In this document: positions 17,411 through 33,460 of the stretch, in pieces
Layout of the letters: each line of letters starts with the position of its first letter
How positions within the stretch are numbered: position 1 is the first letter of the stretch
Origin: Candidatus Yonathbacteria bacterium RIFCSPLOWO2_01_FULL_47_33b
GTDB taxonomy: Bacteria > Patescibacteriota > Minisyncoccia > Phycocordibacterales > UBA1550
Assembly: GCA_001823575.1 (NCBI GenBank)
Contig: MHUW01000022.1
Coordinates: 1 to 39,841 of the forward strand
Reading direction: 5' to 3'
DNA length: 39,841 bases
Notes under the pieces: generated by a model
Seen by the model: only the letters and a program-made list of their open reading frames with translations
The model's database searches: none
What the model was told of the DNA's origin: nothing
Program-made: the position numbers and the translations under genes

Positions 17411-17791
17411 CTACACACTCAAAACAGGAACAAGCTCCTTCGCGACCTTTAGCATTTTTTTATCATTCGTAACGAGCGTCATCCTGCCCACAATAGCTGT
17501 TGCTGCAATTGTGGCATCACCGAGAGTAAGCAACTTTTTCCTTCTTAGTGCGGCAGCTGTACCTAAAATATCAAGGGAAACAAAGGGGTTCATATCAAAA
17601 GTGTTAAGGAAGTCTTCTATCTGTTTGATTTGACTATCCTTAAGTTCACTCAAGCTTAAAACTTCTATCCTGCTTACAAAAGATATTTTTAAAATTGAAC
17701 CTGCTTTTCTTTGGTCGGCAACCCAAGCATACGTTTCCTTGTGGCCGTTCAAAAAGTCTATGAGTATATTTGAGTCTAATAAATAGGACAT
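17411..17791 (-). CDS. vapC: PIN-domain toxin, VapC family
   Basis: Probable endoribonuclease toxin. 126 residues with the PIN acidic residues Asp6 (MSYLLDSNILIDFL), Glu43 (SRIEVLSLSE), Asp92 (LTLGDATIAATA) and Asp110 (TLVTNDKKML). All four are present, so it should be active. It lies 25 bp downstream of a small basic protein that is presumably its antitoxin. Confidence 0.9.
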   Translation of the reverse strand: MSYLLDSNILIDFLNGHKETYAWVADQRKAGSILKISFVSRIEVLSLSELKDSQIKQIEDFLNTFDMNPFVSLDILGTAAALRRKKLLTLGDATIAATAIVGRMTLVTNDKKMLKVAKELVPVLSV

Positions 17792-18077: not shown

Positions 18078-21000
18078 CTACTTAATCAACGCATTCAACT
18101 TCGCCCGCGTCTTTGGCCCTACCGTCCCATACCCAGGAGTGCTTGAGGATGCGATGTCATATTTTTCTTGAAAACGTCTAATTGCGCGCTGTGTTGCAGG
18201 CCCAAAGAAACCAGTAACGAGACCTTCAGGATAAAGTGTTTGATCTTTTTTAAGAAACTCTTGAAGCGCAGAGACATCATTTCCTTTTGACCCATACTTG
18301 AGGGAACGAAGGAAGGAAGAAGGAGCGCGGGAAGGTGTTGATACAGTCGGTGGTGTTGGCGTCGCTGCAGGAGTAGGAGTGTCTAGATATGTCACAGTGC
18401 CGTCGGGTGCAATAGTCTGCATACGAGGTGTGAGGTATCCAGGGAGCGCAGAGGGTGGGCCATAGAAAGTTCCTCCCCCACCGCAAGAAGAAACGGAAAA
18501 AGTTTGAGTGTTTGAACTGACACTGTTCCCTTCATTATCAACAGCACTGATATACCAACTATGACTACCGCAAGAAAATCCTGTGGCGGATGTTTGTGTT
18601 GTGGTAGTGGCGATACTGTCATTTTTGATGGCACCGTCAACGTAGAGCTGGTACTTTAAAAGTCCAGAAGATGCATCACTTGATGCCGTCCAGGTAAATG
18701 TCTGTGTTCCCCCTCCGCTAATATTTGATGTAAGCGATGCGGTGGGCGTGGTAGGAGCAGTAGTATCGGGGTCCACGTTAAATGTATGCACGGAGTAACC
18801 CCCTGTGTAGGTGTACGCAATGCGTCCATTTCCATCCGCTTGAAGTGTTTGCTGCGCTACGTCATCAACTGATACGATGTAATAGTGAGCTGGCTGAAGG
18901 TCTCCTATGGTAAAGACAGTGGTTGTGGCGACCGTACTAGAGGCAGTCCACTCTTTAGAATACGTACCTGATGTGTTCCAGGTGATATTAGCGATATCAA
19001 GCCATTTAGAATAATCCCCCGAAACAACAGCGCCGAGACTAGGGGTTGCAACGAGGTCCGCAGTGCTTCCAGAAGCTGAACTGAGGTCCCTAAACTTACC
19101 GTTGTTATATATTCTTGCTCCCGCTTGAATATCTATTTCATCGGTATCCATCGTGTGATTGGTGTAATATAAATATTCAGCCAAATTAGCAATCAGTGCA
19201 TGTCCTGCATTGTTTGGATGCACGTCAGTAGATAGTGTTGCACCAACGTTCCCACAATTTGATGAAGACGTACACCCATAGTAGCCACCGGATTCAGCCT
19301 GCAAATTCCAGTTTGAGTTGAATCGCATTTGATCGAGTATTGAACCATATCTGACCCCATTACTTTGAGCCCACGCATTAACCAACGTGTTTACCGCATC
19401 TGGGTGCGTTTGGTCATCAGGGACGCTCTCAACGCCGAGCCAGATTGGGGTTATCCCCCAATTTATTATTCTCTGGAGGCTTGTTTCTATCTCTGTCGCC
19501 AGTTCCTGGTCGGTTATGTTTGTCGGATTCCTGGCGCCCAGATTACTCAAATTATTAACACCTATTGATAAAAACATTGTTGATGGAGTAGATGTTACCG
19601 CAACGTAATCTATCCAATGTCTCAATCCTTCAACTTTGATACCACTGACGGCACTGTTTGCGGCGCTTAATACTCCTGTAGAGGAAGTAAATTGTGAACT
19701 CACACCGTTCCCCGTTGTTGCTGAACTGCCATTCATAATAGAATCGCCAACAAATGCAATTAAGGAGCCTGCGGTGTAGGTTGGCGCGATAGAAGTCGGT
19801 AGCTGGTATGCTCCCACGTCACTACCTGCCCACGCCAGTCCGTTGCGATCGTATTGCGGCAATACTGAGACACTACCTTTTCCTGCTATCCACTGAGTAG
19901 GTGTTGAATTGATCGTGAGATCTCCTGTTGAGACATTATTAAAATTAGGATTTAGGTAATAATTGGAAGCATCCATTGGAATCAAATAATTGCCTCCGTT
20001 GATGATTGCATCTAAGGCATTATTAACCTGGGTTGAGCTCCAAAAAACATTATTCTTAATAATATAATTGGAGGGGTTACTTACTAAGTCAGCCGCTGCA
20101 GTGCTAGCGAAATGCAATACTGGGGACGCGGCAGTGCTTGAAAAAATATTGTTCCGTATGTCAACAATATTCGTAGATGTTGAAAAATCAACGAAATAGC
20201 CACTACTAACTGGCGCAAAGGAGTTATTGTAAATATTAACAATTGCCGGCTGCGAAGCATCTAGCAGTCCGACTCCATTGTAAATTACCGATGATTTTAC
20301 TGTTATGGTTGGCTTACTTGCATTTGTTTTGTCGTTACGAATAAAAACTCTGCTCGTTGTATTTTTTATCGTACACCGTTCAATAGAATACGAGTTCAAT
20401 GTTCCCGCAGAATTCGTTATTTGCAAACCATATGCACCAACATTATTAAGATCAAGGCTGCAGTCCTGGAATGCAACCATCCGATTTGATTGCGAAATAG
20501 AAAACGATACAGCAACCGAATTGGTGTTAGTAAAGTTGATCCCCTTCAGTAACAAAGGTTTTGAATCGGGTCCATAAAGAAAAGCTCCTGTGGTCCCCGT
20601 TGGAATATTCAGAGTTACGCTTGCCCCGGTTGGGTAAGCCTGCACCGTAGTTGTGCCACTCCCAGCGGCAAGTACAGATAAAATGCGGGTATCTGTACTG
20701 TAGTAAGAATCATACGTTCCTGCTCCAATATTAACCGTATCTCCTTGCGCGGTTCTGCTTCCTGTTAATGCATAATCAAGCGTTAACCAAGCGCAGGCTC
20801 GGGGGGTTACGCCTGAACCAGGATCAGCCGCATCAACTAACCCCGAACAGTTCGTATCATTGCCGTCAGTACGAATATAGCGGGTAGTAGCAGCACTTAC
20901 TGAAGAAGCAAAAGAAAAGAGTAGGATTGTCGCAAAAAATACCTTTCCTAAATAAAGAAGGTGACTTTTAAGAGAGAGAGAGAGAGAGAGAGTTGCTCAT
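18078..21000 (-). CDS. Secreted beta-helix / SGNH-hydrolase / peptidoglycan-binding protein, out of frame at an (AG)11 tract
   Basis: The body is open from 20996 to 18078 with no ATG, GTG or TTG until codon 119 (GTG 20645), yet its first codons encode a complete signal peptide (LKSHLLYLGKVFFATILLFS, cut near SVSA). An ATG at 21000 is one base out of frame; the dinucleotide tract between them could restore the frame. Numbering from 20645: beta-helix repeats fill about 1-250. An SGNH hydrolase follows with GDS (Ser302), GVNN (Asn364-365) and DVHPN (Asp474, His476). Next come a fibronectin-III-like domain (~625-715), a Pro/Thr linker and a peptidoglycan-binding repeat with LKYGSKGNDVSALQEFLKK at the end. 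It likely acts as a wall-attached esterase or deacylase on glycans. In the assembled state only about 10 residues would be made from ATG 21000. Confidence 0.8.
20971..20992. repeat. (AG)11 dinucleotide tract, candidate phase-variation switch
   Basis: Eleven uninterrupted AG units (CT on the coding strand), 5 bases past the ATG at 21000. Current reading from that ATG gives MSNSLSLSLS and then TAA at 20968-20970. Twelve or nine units would join the ATG to the signal peptide. Confidence 0.9.
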
Positions 21001-21042: not shown

Positions 21043-22815
21043 CTATCCCAGCACTGCCTTGATGCGTCTTACGCCAGCCGAACATGCTTCTTCTTTTTGA
21101 ATTTTGAAGTGGCCGAGCTCAGAGGTATTGGTGACGTGAGGGCCACCGCAGAATTCGAGGCTGAAACGTTGGTCGCCTGCACCTACCTGATACACGCGCA
21201 CAATGTCACCGTATTTCTCACCAAAGACGCCGATTGCTCCGCGACGTTTTGCTTCTTCGGCAGGAATATCTTCATACGTCACTGGCAATGCTTCAGCAAT
21301 CTTTTGATTGATGATATCCTCGACGGCTTTCTTTTGCTCATCAGTCATTTTTTCAGTATGCGAAAAATCAAAGCGTAAACGCTCGGCGGTGATATTCGAG
21401 CCCTTTTGCTGGACGTGTTCGCCTAAAACCATGCGCAGTGCCTGATTGAGCATATGGGTTGCGGTGTGATACTTGACTGACATCTCGCTCGTGTCGGCGA
21501 GGCCACCTTTGAACTTTTGCTCTGCGCCGGCGCGTGAGAGGTCTTGGTGTTTTTTAAACTCAACTTCAAAGCCCGCACGGTCAACCGTCACCCCTTTTTC
21601 AAGAGCGAGCTCCTCAGTCATTTCAAGGGGAAAACCATACGTTGAAAAAAGCTGGAATGCATTCATCGCCGAAACTGATCCATTTGCACTCACACGCTCA
21701 AACTCTTTGAGTCCGCGCTCAAGCGTCTTTCTAAATTTCTCTTCTTCTTTGCGGATCTCATCGATAATAAGTGCTGATTGTACGCCTACATTGTCGTATA
21801 TGCCAACATATTTTTCTGCAACGACCGGCACGAGCTCGGCAAGAGTGTTGTGTGCAATACCTAAAACATCCGCATAGCGCACGGCACGGCGAAGGAGACG
21901 ACGGAGAATGTACCCCTGGTCGGTGTTTGCGGGACGAACGCCATCGGCAATCATCATTACTCCTGTACGAACATGATCGGCAACAATGCGCGAGGCTCTC
22001 ATGTCAGTAATTTCACCTCCTGCCAGCTCCTTGATCTTTTCCATGAGCGGCGCAAAGAGGTCGGTCGCAAACACATTATCTTTCCCCTGAATCGCCATCA
22101 CAATGCGCTCAAGGCCCGAACCCGTGTCCACGTTTTTCATGGCGAGCTTGCCGATGACCTTGCCGTCTTTCTTCTCGTACTCCATAAAGACATCGTTCCA
22201 AATCTCGACAACCTCCTGACGGTCGTCTGCCGCCATATATTCCTCTTTGGTCATGTCTCCCAAGCCACGCTCGGTTACATCGTAAAACATTTCGGTATCG
22301 GGACCACAAGGACCATTGTCGCCAGGACTCCACCAGTTGGACTTTGCGGACATAAAGTAAATGCGATTCTCGGGCATATACTTTTTCCAGATCTCAAACG
22401 CTTCGTTGTCGCGCGGTGCATCATCGTTACCTTCAAATACCGTCACGTAGAGACGGCGCGGATCGAGGCCGAGTCCTTCTTCTTTTGAGGTCAAAAATTC
22501 AAAACTCCACTTGATGGCGTCTTCTTTGAAATAATCACCAAGTGACCAGTTGCCAAGCATTTCAAAAAAAGTATCGTGCGTATTGTCGCCCACCTCGTCG
22601 ATATCCTGCGTGCGGACACATTTCTGAGAGTTCGCCAGGCGCACACCGCGAGGGTGTGGGGTCCCCATCAAATACGGCGCGAGGGGTTGCATCCCGGCAG
22701 TATTAAAAAGCACCGAAGGGTCGTTCTCGGGCACAAGAGGGGTCGAAGGAATAATAGCGTGTCCCCTCCCCTCAAAAAACTTTAAAAATCGCGCTCTAAT
22801 TTCTCGTGAATCCAT
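21043..22815 (-). CDS. alaS: Alanine--tRNA ligase, short form
   Basis: Charges tRNA(Ala) and edits mischarged serine or glycine. The catalytic domain has the class II motif FFEGRGHAIIPSTPLVPEND, the SGDN-like WWSPGDNGPCGPDTEMFYD and TGSGLERI. The editing domain has both metal-binding motifs, HTATH (450-454) and CGGPH (556-560). The protein stops at residue 590 just after the editing domain; the usual ~875-residue enzyme continues with a C-Ala domain that is absent here. The frame ends cleanly with GVRRIKAVLG, so this looks like a natural short form rather than a broken gene. Confidence 0.97.
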   Translation of the reverse strand: MDSREIRARFLKFFEGRGHAIIPSTPLVPENDPSVLFNTAGMQPLAPYLMGTPHPRGVRLANSQKCVRTQDIDEVGDNTHDTFFEMLGNWSLGDYFKEDAIKWSFEFLTSKEEGLGLDPRRLYVTVFEGNDDAPRDNEAFEIWKKYMPENRIYFMSAKSNWWSPGDNGPCGPDTEMFYDVTERGLGDMTKEEYMAADDRQEVVEIWNDVFMEYEKKDGKVIGKLAMKNVDTGSGLERIVMAIQGKDNVFATDLFAPLMEKIKELAGGEITDMRASRIVADHVRTGVMMIADGVRPANTDQGYILRRLLRRAVRYADVLGIAHNTLAELVPVVAEKYVGIYDNVGVQSALIIDEIRKEEEKFRKTLERGLKEFERVSANGSVSAMNAFQLFSTYGFPLEMTEELALEKGVTVDRAGFEVEFKKHQDLSRAGAEQKFKGGLADTSEMSVKYHTATHMLNQALRMVLGEHVQQKGSNITAERLRFDFSHTEKMTDEQKKAVEDIINQKIAEALPVTYEDIPAEEAKRRGAIGVFGEKYGDIVRVYQVGAGDQRFSLEFCGGPHVTNTSELGHFKIQKEEACSAGVRRIKAVLG

Positions 22816-25031: not shown

Positions 25032-26139
25032 ACTCCTCAATCACTCCTCCTCCGACACACTCATCGCCATCATATAAAACAATTGATTGACCTGCGTCAA
25101 AGATTGCAGGTTTTTCGAGCTGAAGTTCAAACTTCTCGTCTTTCAAAGACACGATTTTACATTTATGAGACTCGCCATGATAGCGCACCTGTGCCGCATA
25201 GGCATGAGTGTGGTCTAGGACAGCTCCTCGACAAAAGCTTGTCTGTGAGGCCTGCAGAGCCTGTGAGGCACATTCTAGGGGCTTTTTTGCAACCTGATGC
25301 GCCACAGTGAGGGTGTTGTTTACAAGGTCTTTTGCAACAATATAGTAAGGACTGTCGTCTGTCCCCTTTTTGGTAATGGTAAACCCATGCCGTTCGCCGA
25401 GGGTATAAAAATATGCGCCGCGATGTGTGCCAATCGTTTCGCCTTGTTCATTGATGACACTTCCCTCTTTCTCCTGTATAAAATGCGCGAGAAAATCTTT
25501 TACATCAAGCTTGCCCATAAAGCAAAGTCCTTGGCTATCTTTTTTCTTCGCAACGGGAAGTCCAAACTTTTTTGCAAGCGCTCGTACATGTGACTTCTCA
25601 AATCCTCCAATCGGGAAAAAAGTTTTAGAGAGCTGTGCTTGTCCGAGCGTCCATAAAAAATACGACTGATCTTTTGCGGTATCTACTCCCGTAAGCATTT
25701 TGTATTCTGCTCCACCGCTTTTGACTTTTGACTTTTGACTTTTGACTACTCTTGCATAATGCCCCGTCGCCACAAAGTCAGCACCCGCCTCTGTCGCGCG
25801 GCGAAAGAATGCGCCAAACTTAACCTCTTTATTGCACATCACGTCAGGGTTCGGCGTACGACCTGCTTTGTACTCGCGTATCATGTAGTCTGCAACACCC
25901 TCTTTGTATTCCTTTTCAAAATTCCAGGTAAGGAACGGGATGCCGAGGTGCGCTGCAACGCGCATAGCATCGAGGCGCTCCGTGCGCCACGTGCAGGGCA
26001 AAAAATCTGGCTGCCAAACCTTCATAAAAACTCCTATCACCTCGTAGCCTTCTTTTAAGAGGAGCGCTGCCGCAACCGAGCTGTCTACCCCGCCCGACAT
26101 CGCAACATATACTTTTCCTTTTGATTTTTTTACTGCCAT
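25021..26139 (-). CDS. mnmA: tRNA-specific 2-thiouridylase MnmA
   Basis: Adds sulfur to U34 of Lys, Glu and Gln tRNAs. 372 residues. The PP-loop SGGVDS (15-20) binds ATP; the two catalytic cysteines are Cys102 (MCNKEVKFGAF) and Cys206 (DSQGLCFMGKLDVKDF). GHYARV and GVDTAKDQSYFLW are in place, and GGGVIEEYI ends the protein. An insertion at about residues 133-143 (KSQKSKVKSGG) is encoded by four tandem 7-bp units. Third gene after the DUF8128-like and mltG genes. Confidence 0.97.
   Translation of the reverse strand: MAVKKSKGKVYVAMSGGVDSSVAAALLLKEGYEVIGVFMKVWQPDFLPCTWRTERLDAMRVAAHLGIPFLTWNFEKEYKEGVADYMIREYKAGRTPNPDVMCNKEVKFGAFFRRATEAGADFVATGHYARVVKSQKSKVKSGGAEYKMLTGVDTAKDQSYFLWTLGQAQLSKTFFPIGGFEKSHVRALAKKFGLPVAKKKDSQGLCFMGKLDVKDFLAHFIQEKEGSVINEQGETIGTHRGAYFYTLGERHGFTITKKGTDDSPYYIVAKDLVNNTLTVAHQVAKKPLECASQALQASQTSFCRGAVLDHTHAYAAQVRYHGESHKCKIVSLKDEKFELQLEKPAIFDAGQSIVLYDGDECVGGGVIEEYIG
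25718..25745. repeat. Four tandem 7-bp units (CTTTTGA) within mnmA
   Basis: CTTTTGA x4, perfect. It codes for the SQKSKVKS loop inserted after GHYARV. Seven is not a multiple of three, so loss or gain of a unit would shift the frame. Confidence 0.9.
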
Positions 26140-32908: not shown

Positions 32909-33460
32909 ATGGTTAAAAAGAAAAAACCTCTCCCTTCAAAAATCCCCGAGGATCTACGCCTTGAAAAAATTTCGGTCAACGCGACAAGGTGGATTGGTTC
33001 TATCGAGTCCCTCATCGTACACACCGCTCTTTTTGCAGGGATGTTCTCTCTTTCCTTTTTTGGGTTTGATGTCGACAAAATACTACTCGTTCTCACCACC
33101 ATTCTCTCTCTTGAGGCAATATACCTTGCAATCTTCATTCAAATGACAGTAAATAGAAACACGATGCAGTTGCGTGAGGTTGAAAAAGACATTGAGGAGA
33201 TTTCGGAGGATATCGAAGACATTCAAGAAGATGTGGAGGAGATTTCGGAGGATATCGAAGACATTCAAGAAGATGTGGAAGAGATTTCGGAGGATATCGA
33301 AGACATTCAAGAAGATGTGGAAGAGATTTCGGAAGACGAGGAGCAAGAAGTAAAAGAAGAGGAGCTCGCAAAAAAAGAAAACAAACTTGCTCTCGCAAAA
33401 CTCGAAAAGACGCTCGCAAGCCTGCTCAAGGAAATCGAGGAACTCAAAAAGAAGAAATAA
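32909..33460 (+). CDS. DUF1003-like membrane protein with long acidic coiled coil
   Basis: 183 residues from ATG 32909, chosen over an upstream start inside the promoter. Two spans at about 34-52 (LIVHTALFAGMFSLSFFGF) and 58-77 (ILLVLTTILSLEAIYLAIFI) with LSLEAIYLAIFIQMTVNRNT resemble DUF1003. An acidic coiled coil of three perfect 14-residue repeats (EEISEDIEDIQEDV) follows, with Ile/Val at heptad spacing, then a Lys/Glu helix. Likely forms a cytoplasmic rod. Divergent from the four-span gene and convergent with relBE copy 2. Confidence 0.75.
   Translation: MVKKKKPLPSKIPEDLRLEKISVNATRWIGSIESLIVHTALFAGMFSLSFFGFDVDKILLVLTTILSLEAIYLAIFIQMTVNRNTMQLREVEKDIEEISEDIEDIQEDVEEISEDIEDIQEDVEEISEDIEDIQEDVEEISEDEEQEVKEEELAKKENKLALAKLEKTLASLLKEIEELKKKK
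33194..33319 (+). repeat. Three 42-bp tandem repeats in the coiled-coil gene
   Basis: Units 33194-33235, 33236-33277 and 33278-33319 are nearly identical, with a partial fourth. 42 bp is 14 codons or two heptads, so unit changes keep the frame and lengthen the rod. Confidence 0.9.

Follow-up and report, generated by a model that had tools for sequence, protein, structure and literature searches.

Slipped-strand repeat switches are known from pathogens. Haemophilus lic1A and lic2A and Neisseria opa are translational SSR contingency loci, and in opa the CTCTT units lie within the code for the signal peptide. In the locus we describe here, as in these, a short repeat follows closely on the start codon, slippage there would shift the reading frame, and the target is a surface molecule. 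It differs from them in that the repeat is a CT dinucleotide, the gene concerned encodes a secreted SGNH hydrolase that carries a wall-binding domain, the organism is a member of the Patescibacteria, and the switching is predicted from sequence.

Phase variation by promoter spacing is described for Neisseria porA and nadA, and porA has a poly-G tract in its promoter (PMC3639595, PMC2791445). Sister poly-G tracts in the genome studied here likewise lie between -35 and -10 elements, but the genes are different, promoter function is assigned by consensus, and the CT tract itself is translational. Campylobacter and Helicobacter have phasomes of G/C tracts (PMC6321876, PMC2823697). Our genome is like theirs in its small size, its several poly-G tracts of 7-11 and its surface-protein targets, but it has fewer loci (~10), mixed repeats (G, CT and a pentamer) and leaderless-looking promoters. 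Within the Candidate Phyla Radiation, the portions of the Gracilibacterium BD1-5 report drawn on here describe a gene with hypervariable 9-mer repeats that encodes a predicted surface protein (PMC6851277). There too, repeats underlie variation in a predicted surface protein; unlike at our locus, the BD1-5 repeats keep the frame and their variation is synonymous, and those portions of the report propose no on/off switch (PMC6851277). A search of the open-access literature found no earlier report of SSR phase variation in Patescibacteria or the Candidate Phyla Radiation, in agreement with the initial annotation, which knew of no described case in Patescibacteria. The mechanism we propose is of an already known kind; what is new is the group of organisms and the connection with retroelements.

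The CT tract and its reading frame

The window, by which we mean the whole stretch of 39,841 nucleotides that was analysed, belongs to a genome of 0.72 Mb in 22 contigs, read whole as stretches. Its nearest named relatives are Ca. Yonathbacteria and Nomurabacteria, so the patescibacterial setting assumed at the outset holds. The locus is on the minus strand, where positions 21000-20968 read ATGAGCAA-(CT)11-TAAAAGTCACC, that is, ATG AGC AA(CT)11 TAA. The locus and its neighbours comprise the following features:

20998..21000, minus strand: ATG start codon, 5' of the tract (read from the sequence and by ORF recomputation)
20971..20992, minus strand: unbroken (CT)11 tract, which is (AG)11 on the plus strand
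20968..20970, minus strand: TAA closing the 10-residue OFF product MSNSLSLSLS (by translation)
18078..20972, minus strand: main reading frame, 964 aa, which joins the ATG only at 6, 9, 12 and 15 units among the counts tested
20892..20972, minus strand: signal peptide KSHLLYLGKVFFATILLFSFASSVSA with an expected cleavage site behind VSA (by eye; Kyte-Doolittle value of 2.5 for the hydrophobic segment)
19194..19754, minus strand: SGNH/GDSL hydrolase domain, residues 407-593 (Pfam PF13472, 1.5e-10)
18096..18284, minus strand: C-terminal peptidoglycan-binding domain, residues 897-959 (Pfam PF01471, 1.8e-8)
21043..22815, minus strand: alanyl-tRNA synthetase on the upstream side, with its catalytic part and SAD domain (Pfam PF01411, PF07973), ending 43 nt before the ATG
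17411-17791: downstream neighbour, PIN-domain protein (Pfam)

As assembled, with 11 units, the locus is OFF: translation from the ATG at 21000 ends after 10 residues. The long frame is open from 20996 to 18078 (972 codons), with a TGA directly upstream at 20997-20999, and its product, counted from 20972, is the 964-aa protein LKSHLLYLGKVFFATILLFSFASSVSA followed by ATTRY.... The first ATG, GTG or TTG of this frame is a GTG at 20645, inside the mature protein (an 855-aa ORF); gene callers will place the start there and lose the signal peptide, or will annotate genes of this type as broken. When the ORF was recomputed for 6-15 CT units, counts of 6, 9, 12 and 15 gave a single ORF of 970-976 aa, and counts of 7, 8, 10, 11, 13 and 14 gave an OFF product of 8-18 aa. 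The repeat is therefore placed between start codon and coding region in the frame-shifting manner of a contingency locus. These results bear out what the initial annotation had read from the letters: an ATG at 21000 followed by (CT)11 and a signal peptide in a different frame, a stop after about ten residues, a protein of ~970 codons, and no other ATG, GTG or TTG in the first 118 codons. To the 9 and 12 units that it named as joining start and signal peptide, recomputation adds 6 and 15.

Upstream of the ATG at 21000 we saw no Shine-Dalgarno-like sequence, found no sigma-70-type promoter above threshold and recognised no strong promoter; by eye, a TATAAA lies ~21 nt upstream. Recoding of the TGA that adjoins the long frame was considered and dropped, as the genes of the window read normally under table 11.

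An uninterrupted simple repeat of this length is improbable for the genome. Period-2 runs drop about four-fold per extra nucleotide (25,834 of at least 4 nt, 101 of at least 8, 6 of at least 10 and 1 of at least 11), and 4e-7 to 5e-6 runs of at least 22 nt are expected in 719 kb. The genome has no second period-2 run longer than 11 nt, and (CT)11 was the sole dinucleotide run of more than 5 units found, in a dinucleotide-run scan that left out 19.3 kb of contig C21; the whole-genome searches included those 19.3 kb.

The predicted surface protein

The SGNH blocks occur in order in the long-frame product (I, GDS at 409; II, G at 444; III, GVNN at 471; V, DVHPNNAGH at 583), and the PF13472 match is above the cut-off. 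Together these catalytic-type blocks and the Pfam hit uphold the earlier assignment to the SGNH hydrolases, and the signal peptide, read by eye, stands as well. Because it combines SGNH and peptidoglycan-binding domains, the product is probably a secreted, wall-bound esterase-type surface protein. It probably acts on surface glycans of the own cell, of the host or of a phage receptor, a glycan or host role that we infer. In solved structures it has a weak match only, to the peptidoglycan-binding part.

A search of a collection of genome contigs gave no close relatives of the protein. The nearest paralogue, a 1198-aa open frame on contig C9, matches it at 54% over the C-terminal 392 residues and starts with TATACT-aaaggg-ATG, without a tract. 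Comparison of the CT tract across related genomes, which the initial annotation had proposed as a check, yielded no orthologue of the N-terminal half and no copy of another length: within the genus the C-terminal part alone matches, and in viral contigs neither the CT-tract locus nor the fibre-gene locus described below turned up with a different tract length.

The PIN-domain gene (17411-17791) is preceded by a small ORF, an arrangement resembling a toxin-antitoxin pair. Elsewhere in the window, positions 25718-25747 hold a heptanucleotide repeat of ~4.3 perfect AGTCAAA copies in an mnmA-type tRNA 2-thiouridylase gene, the frame of which a one-unit change would shift, and positions 33186-33336, in an ORF-rich region, hold 42-nt tandem repeats (3.3 copies, 98% alike) of in-frame length.

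Poly-G tracts in the same genome

Runs of G or C in this genome (G000) fall steeply with length, from 2792 of 4 nt to 754 of 5 and 99 of 6, and then form a plateau, with 6 runs of 7 nt, 4 of 8, 2 of 9, 3 of 10 and 2 of 11. Five runs of at least 10 nt were observed, against 0.04 expected from the 5-to-6 ratio.

A G11 at C3:28122-28132 and a G9 at C16:30961-30969 lie within the signal peptide, MNPRRVIFVLTLSLILGGG followed by VLYKSPVSFAAE, of two related fibre-like surface genes; neither gene is in frame as assembled, and G10 or G7 would restore the frame in each. An alignment of the two 5' regions over 234 nt shows 95% identity and a single gap, at the G tract, so the tract has changed in length since the duplication. 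The C3 fibre product has Peptidase_S74 and surface Ig-like domains (Pfam), and its middle part looks SGNH-like by eye (AWGDSLTGGSG ... WAGRNN). Other G tracts lie between -35-like and -10-like hexamers (G7 at C1:8174, G9 at C1:15610, G8 at C1:44840, and G10 at both C13:29652 and C15:602), with spacers of 17-19 nt and, in some, an ATG just ~7 nt past the -10. Here the promoters are consensus calls, tract lengths are those of the assembly consensus, and comparisons use one genome per species. A G11 at C1:67569 is inside the N-terminal code of a histidine kinase. With the signal peptide, SGNH and peptidoglycan-binding domains of the CT-tract protein on the one hand and these other tracts on the other, the genome has both a surface or host-interaction target and further loci of the same kind.

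The histidine-kinase gene also has an in-frame TAG at C1:67668 (L026:7668), where orthologues have a sense codon. A pentamer repeat, (AGAGG)7, occupies C17:41091-41125 (L039:1091-1125), in non-coding DNA between a small gene and a tRNA-Trp gene recognised by eye.

Recurrence in the genus and order

The spacer promoters have the form TTGAC-N8-9-Gn-TATACT. The pattern TTGAC-N{8,11}-G7-N{1,6}-TANNNT occurs at 11 sites in 6 of the 16 genomes of the genus, compared with 1 for the reversed pattern, and a scan of the same order returned 25 rows for it, representing 23 distinct sites in 18 of 297 genomes and 15 genera, compared with 2 for the reversed control. Tract length differs at sister loci, that is, at paralogues and orthologues of the other tracts (fibre genes, promoters and histidine kinase). 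Between identical flanks, the orthologous promoter TTGACAAGTGTTGTA-Gn-TACAAT has G10 in G008 and G8 in G009; the tract of the MEPKFE gene is G7 in G000 and G10 in G003; and the histidine-kinase orthologues have G11, G11, G11, G10 and G8. A further member of the genus carries MNHFSKILAFILLFLGGGVLVATAQ, with G10 in frame.

Dinucleotide tracts recur as well. Runs of (CT)9 or longer are present in 12 of 98 genomes of the order, and 46 sites, spread over 33 of 397 genomes (28 of 179 genera), carry runs of (CT)8 or longer that start with C. Placement was evaluated for 48 distinct CT/GA tracts, with random positions from the same loci as a local control: 18 of the 48 sit at a long ORF's 5' end, against 10.4% of random positions (p ~7e-7), and 8 at signal-peptide-like starts, against 1.5% (p ~4e-7). 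GA tracts precede signal peptides in G106, G376, G116 and G272 and a type IV pilin-like protein in G048, and other CT/GA targets are beta-helix and S74 fibre proteins. The GA tracts at L142:1500-1520 and L199:1481-1501 have upstream ATGs in all three frames; there a change in length would shift which start is used, and might change the amount of protein, without turning it off.

The closest parallel to our locus is in G060, where (CT)9 lies in the signal peptide, out of frame, and encodes MKTSLHALTL(LS)n before LLILPISASAQ in a protein with PG_binding_1 and Lipase_GDSL_2 domains. The two proteins had no significant BLASTP match (E 1.0). As they are not detectably homologous, the shared domains and tract design look convergent, and the CT-tract design on SGNH and peptidoglycan-binding proteins appears to have arisen more than once.

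MutS (MutS_V, PF00488) was found in 0 of the 16 genomes of the genus versus 11 of 14 control genomes. Absence of MutS raises slippage rates.

A predicted slippage switch

The frame arithmetic, the rarity of the tract, the genome- and order-wide tract set, the length differences at sister loci and the absence of MutS together make slipped-strand translational phase variation very probably the best explanation of the (CT)11 tract, which would then be a contingency switch. In replication the CT run would slip by one or more 2-nt units, and slippage would escape correction by MutS-type mismatch repair because MutS is absent. At unit counts that are multiples of three, translation from the ATG at 21000 would pass by way of (Leu-Ser)n to the signal peptide, and the cell would make and export a large SGNH hydrolase of the surface that carries a cell-wall-binding domain; at other counts the product would be a peptide of ~8-18 residues, and the population would be a mixture of ON and OFF cells. 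We infer slippage rate, reversibility and expression at the CT tract. The on/off reading offered in the initial annotation gains support from recurrence of the design in this genome and in other genera, from the differing lengths in paralogues and orthologues, and from the missing MutS.

The predicted switches bear on the question of how the surfaces of Patescibacteria, which live on other microbes, adapt to hosts, phages or competitors. Because their ON lengths are stated, they are directly testable in existing metagenome reads.

It is conceivable, although we think it improbable, that the frame is bypassed at 11 units, whether because ribosome or transcription slips on the CT run or because a non-standard start is used; the tract would then adjust how much protein is made instead of acting as an on/off switch. 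With a single ATG to serve the frame and a TGA directly upstream, any expression at 11 units needs such a bypass, and in the relatives G106 and G376 the tract is preceded by ATGs in each of the three frames, which suggests graded rather than all-or-none output there. However, the usual slippery sequences are A/T homopolymers and not CT dinucleotides, no near-cognate start lies between the TGA and the signal peptide, and poly-G or GA tracts in a like arrangement would each require their own bypass.

We give just as little credence to a decaying pseudogene in which the tract is a neutral expansion that broke the gene by chance. The assembled allele is out of frame, runs may grow in a genome that lacks MutS, and another member of the set, the C1 histidine kinase, has its in-frame TAG. 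Against this, 964 codons are open without another stop and the catalytic-type motifs are intact, and neutral growth fails to explain why tracts are concentrated at 5' ends, signal peptides and promoter spacers. The least plausible account of all is that the count of 11 units arose by an error of assembly or consensus and that the real tract has a fixed in-frame length: tract length in a metagenome assembly is a consensus, but 22 nt fits well inside one short read, and comparable out-of-frame tracts, with different repeat types, occur in assemblies of different projects.

Reverse transcriptases and retroelements

Beyond the CT tract of the window, which we read as a slippage switch, about one third of the CT/GA sites are in or beside reverse transcriptase (RT) genes. 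GA runs of 17-39 nt lie just before (G)IPIGNLTSQ in RT genes at seven loci from six genera, in the same internal place, and reading of the frames puts 6 of the 7 out of frame as assembled. At other loci the tract occupies the 5' ends that divergent RT and Avd-like frames share, and one tract length often brings both RT and Avd into frame. The loci are:

L148, L183, L184, L209, L210, L211 and L212: RT-gene GA tracts just before the GNLTSQ motif
G000 C13:2375-2955 and 3377 (L016): retroelement
G000 C15:602 and 1123-1588 (L018): retroelement

The C13 and C15 loci are diversity-generating retroelements, with RT, Avd and a TR/VR pair differing at template adenines. Pfam places bAvd in both and RVT_1 in C15, and the C13 RT is assigned by its sequence. 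All 23 of 23 TR/VR differences in C13 are at A, as are 6 of 6 in a 47-nt block in C15. Both loci have a G10 tract between the divergent avd and RT genes.

On balance we favour the view that slippage switches, built from CT/GA and poly-G tracts and of both frame and promoter-spacer type, are deployed genome-wide in this order of Patescibacteria, where they act on proteins that face the host and also on the bacteria's own machinery of hypermutation; cells would thus turn these retroelements on and off through slippage. The recurrent tracts on RT and avd genes suggest slippage control of targeted hypermutation; if this is true, one mutational switch gates another, with slippage governing retroelement hypermutation. 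We found no report in open-access papers that links diversity-generating retroelements to slipped-strand switching. In the assembly, the C15 variable repeat includes a stretch of N, which may reflect population variation.
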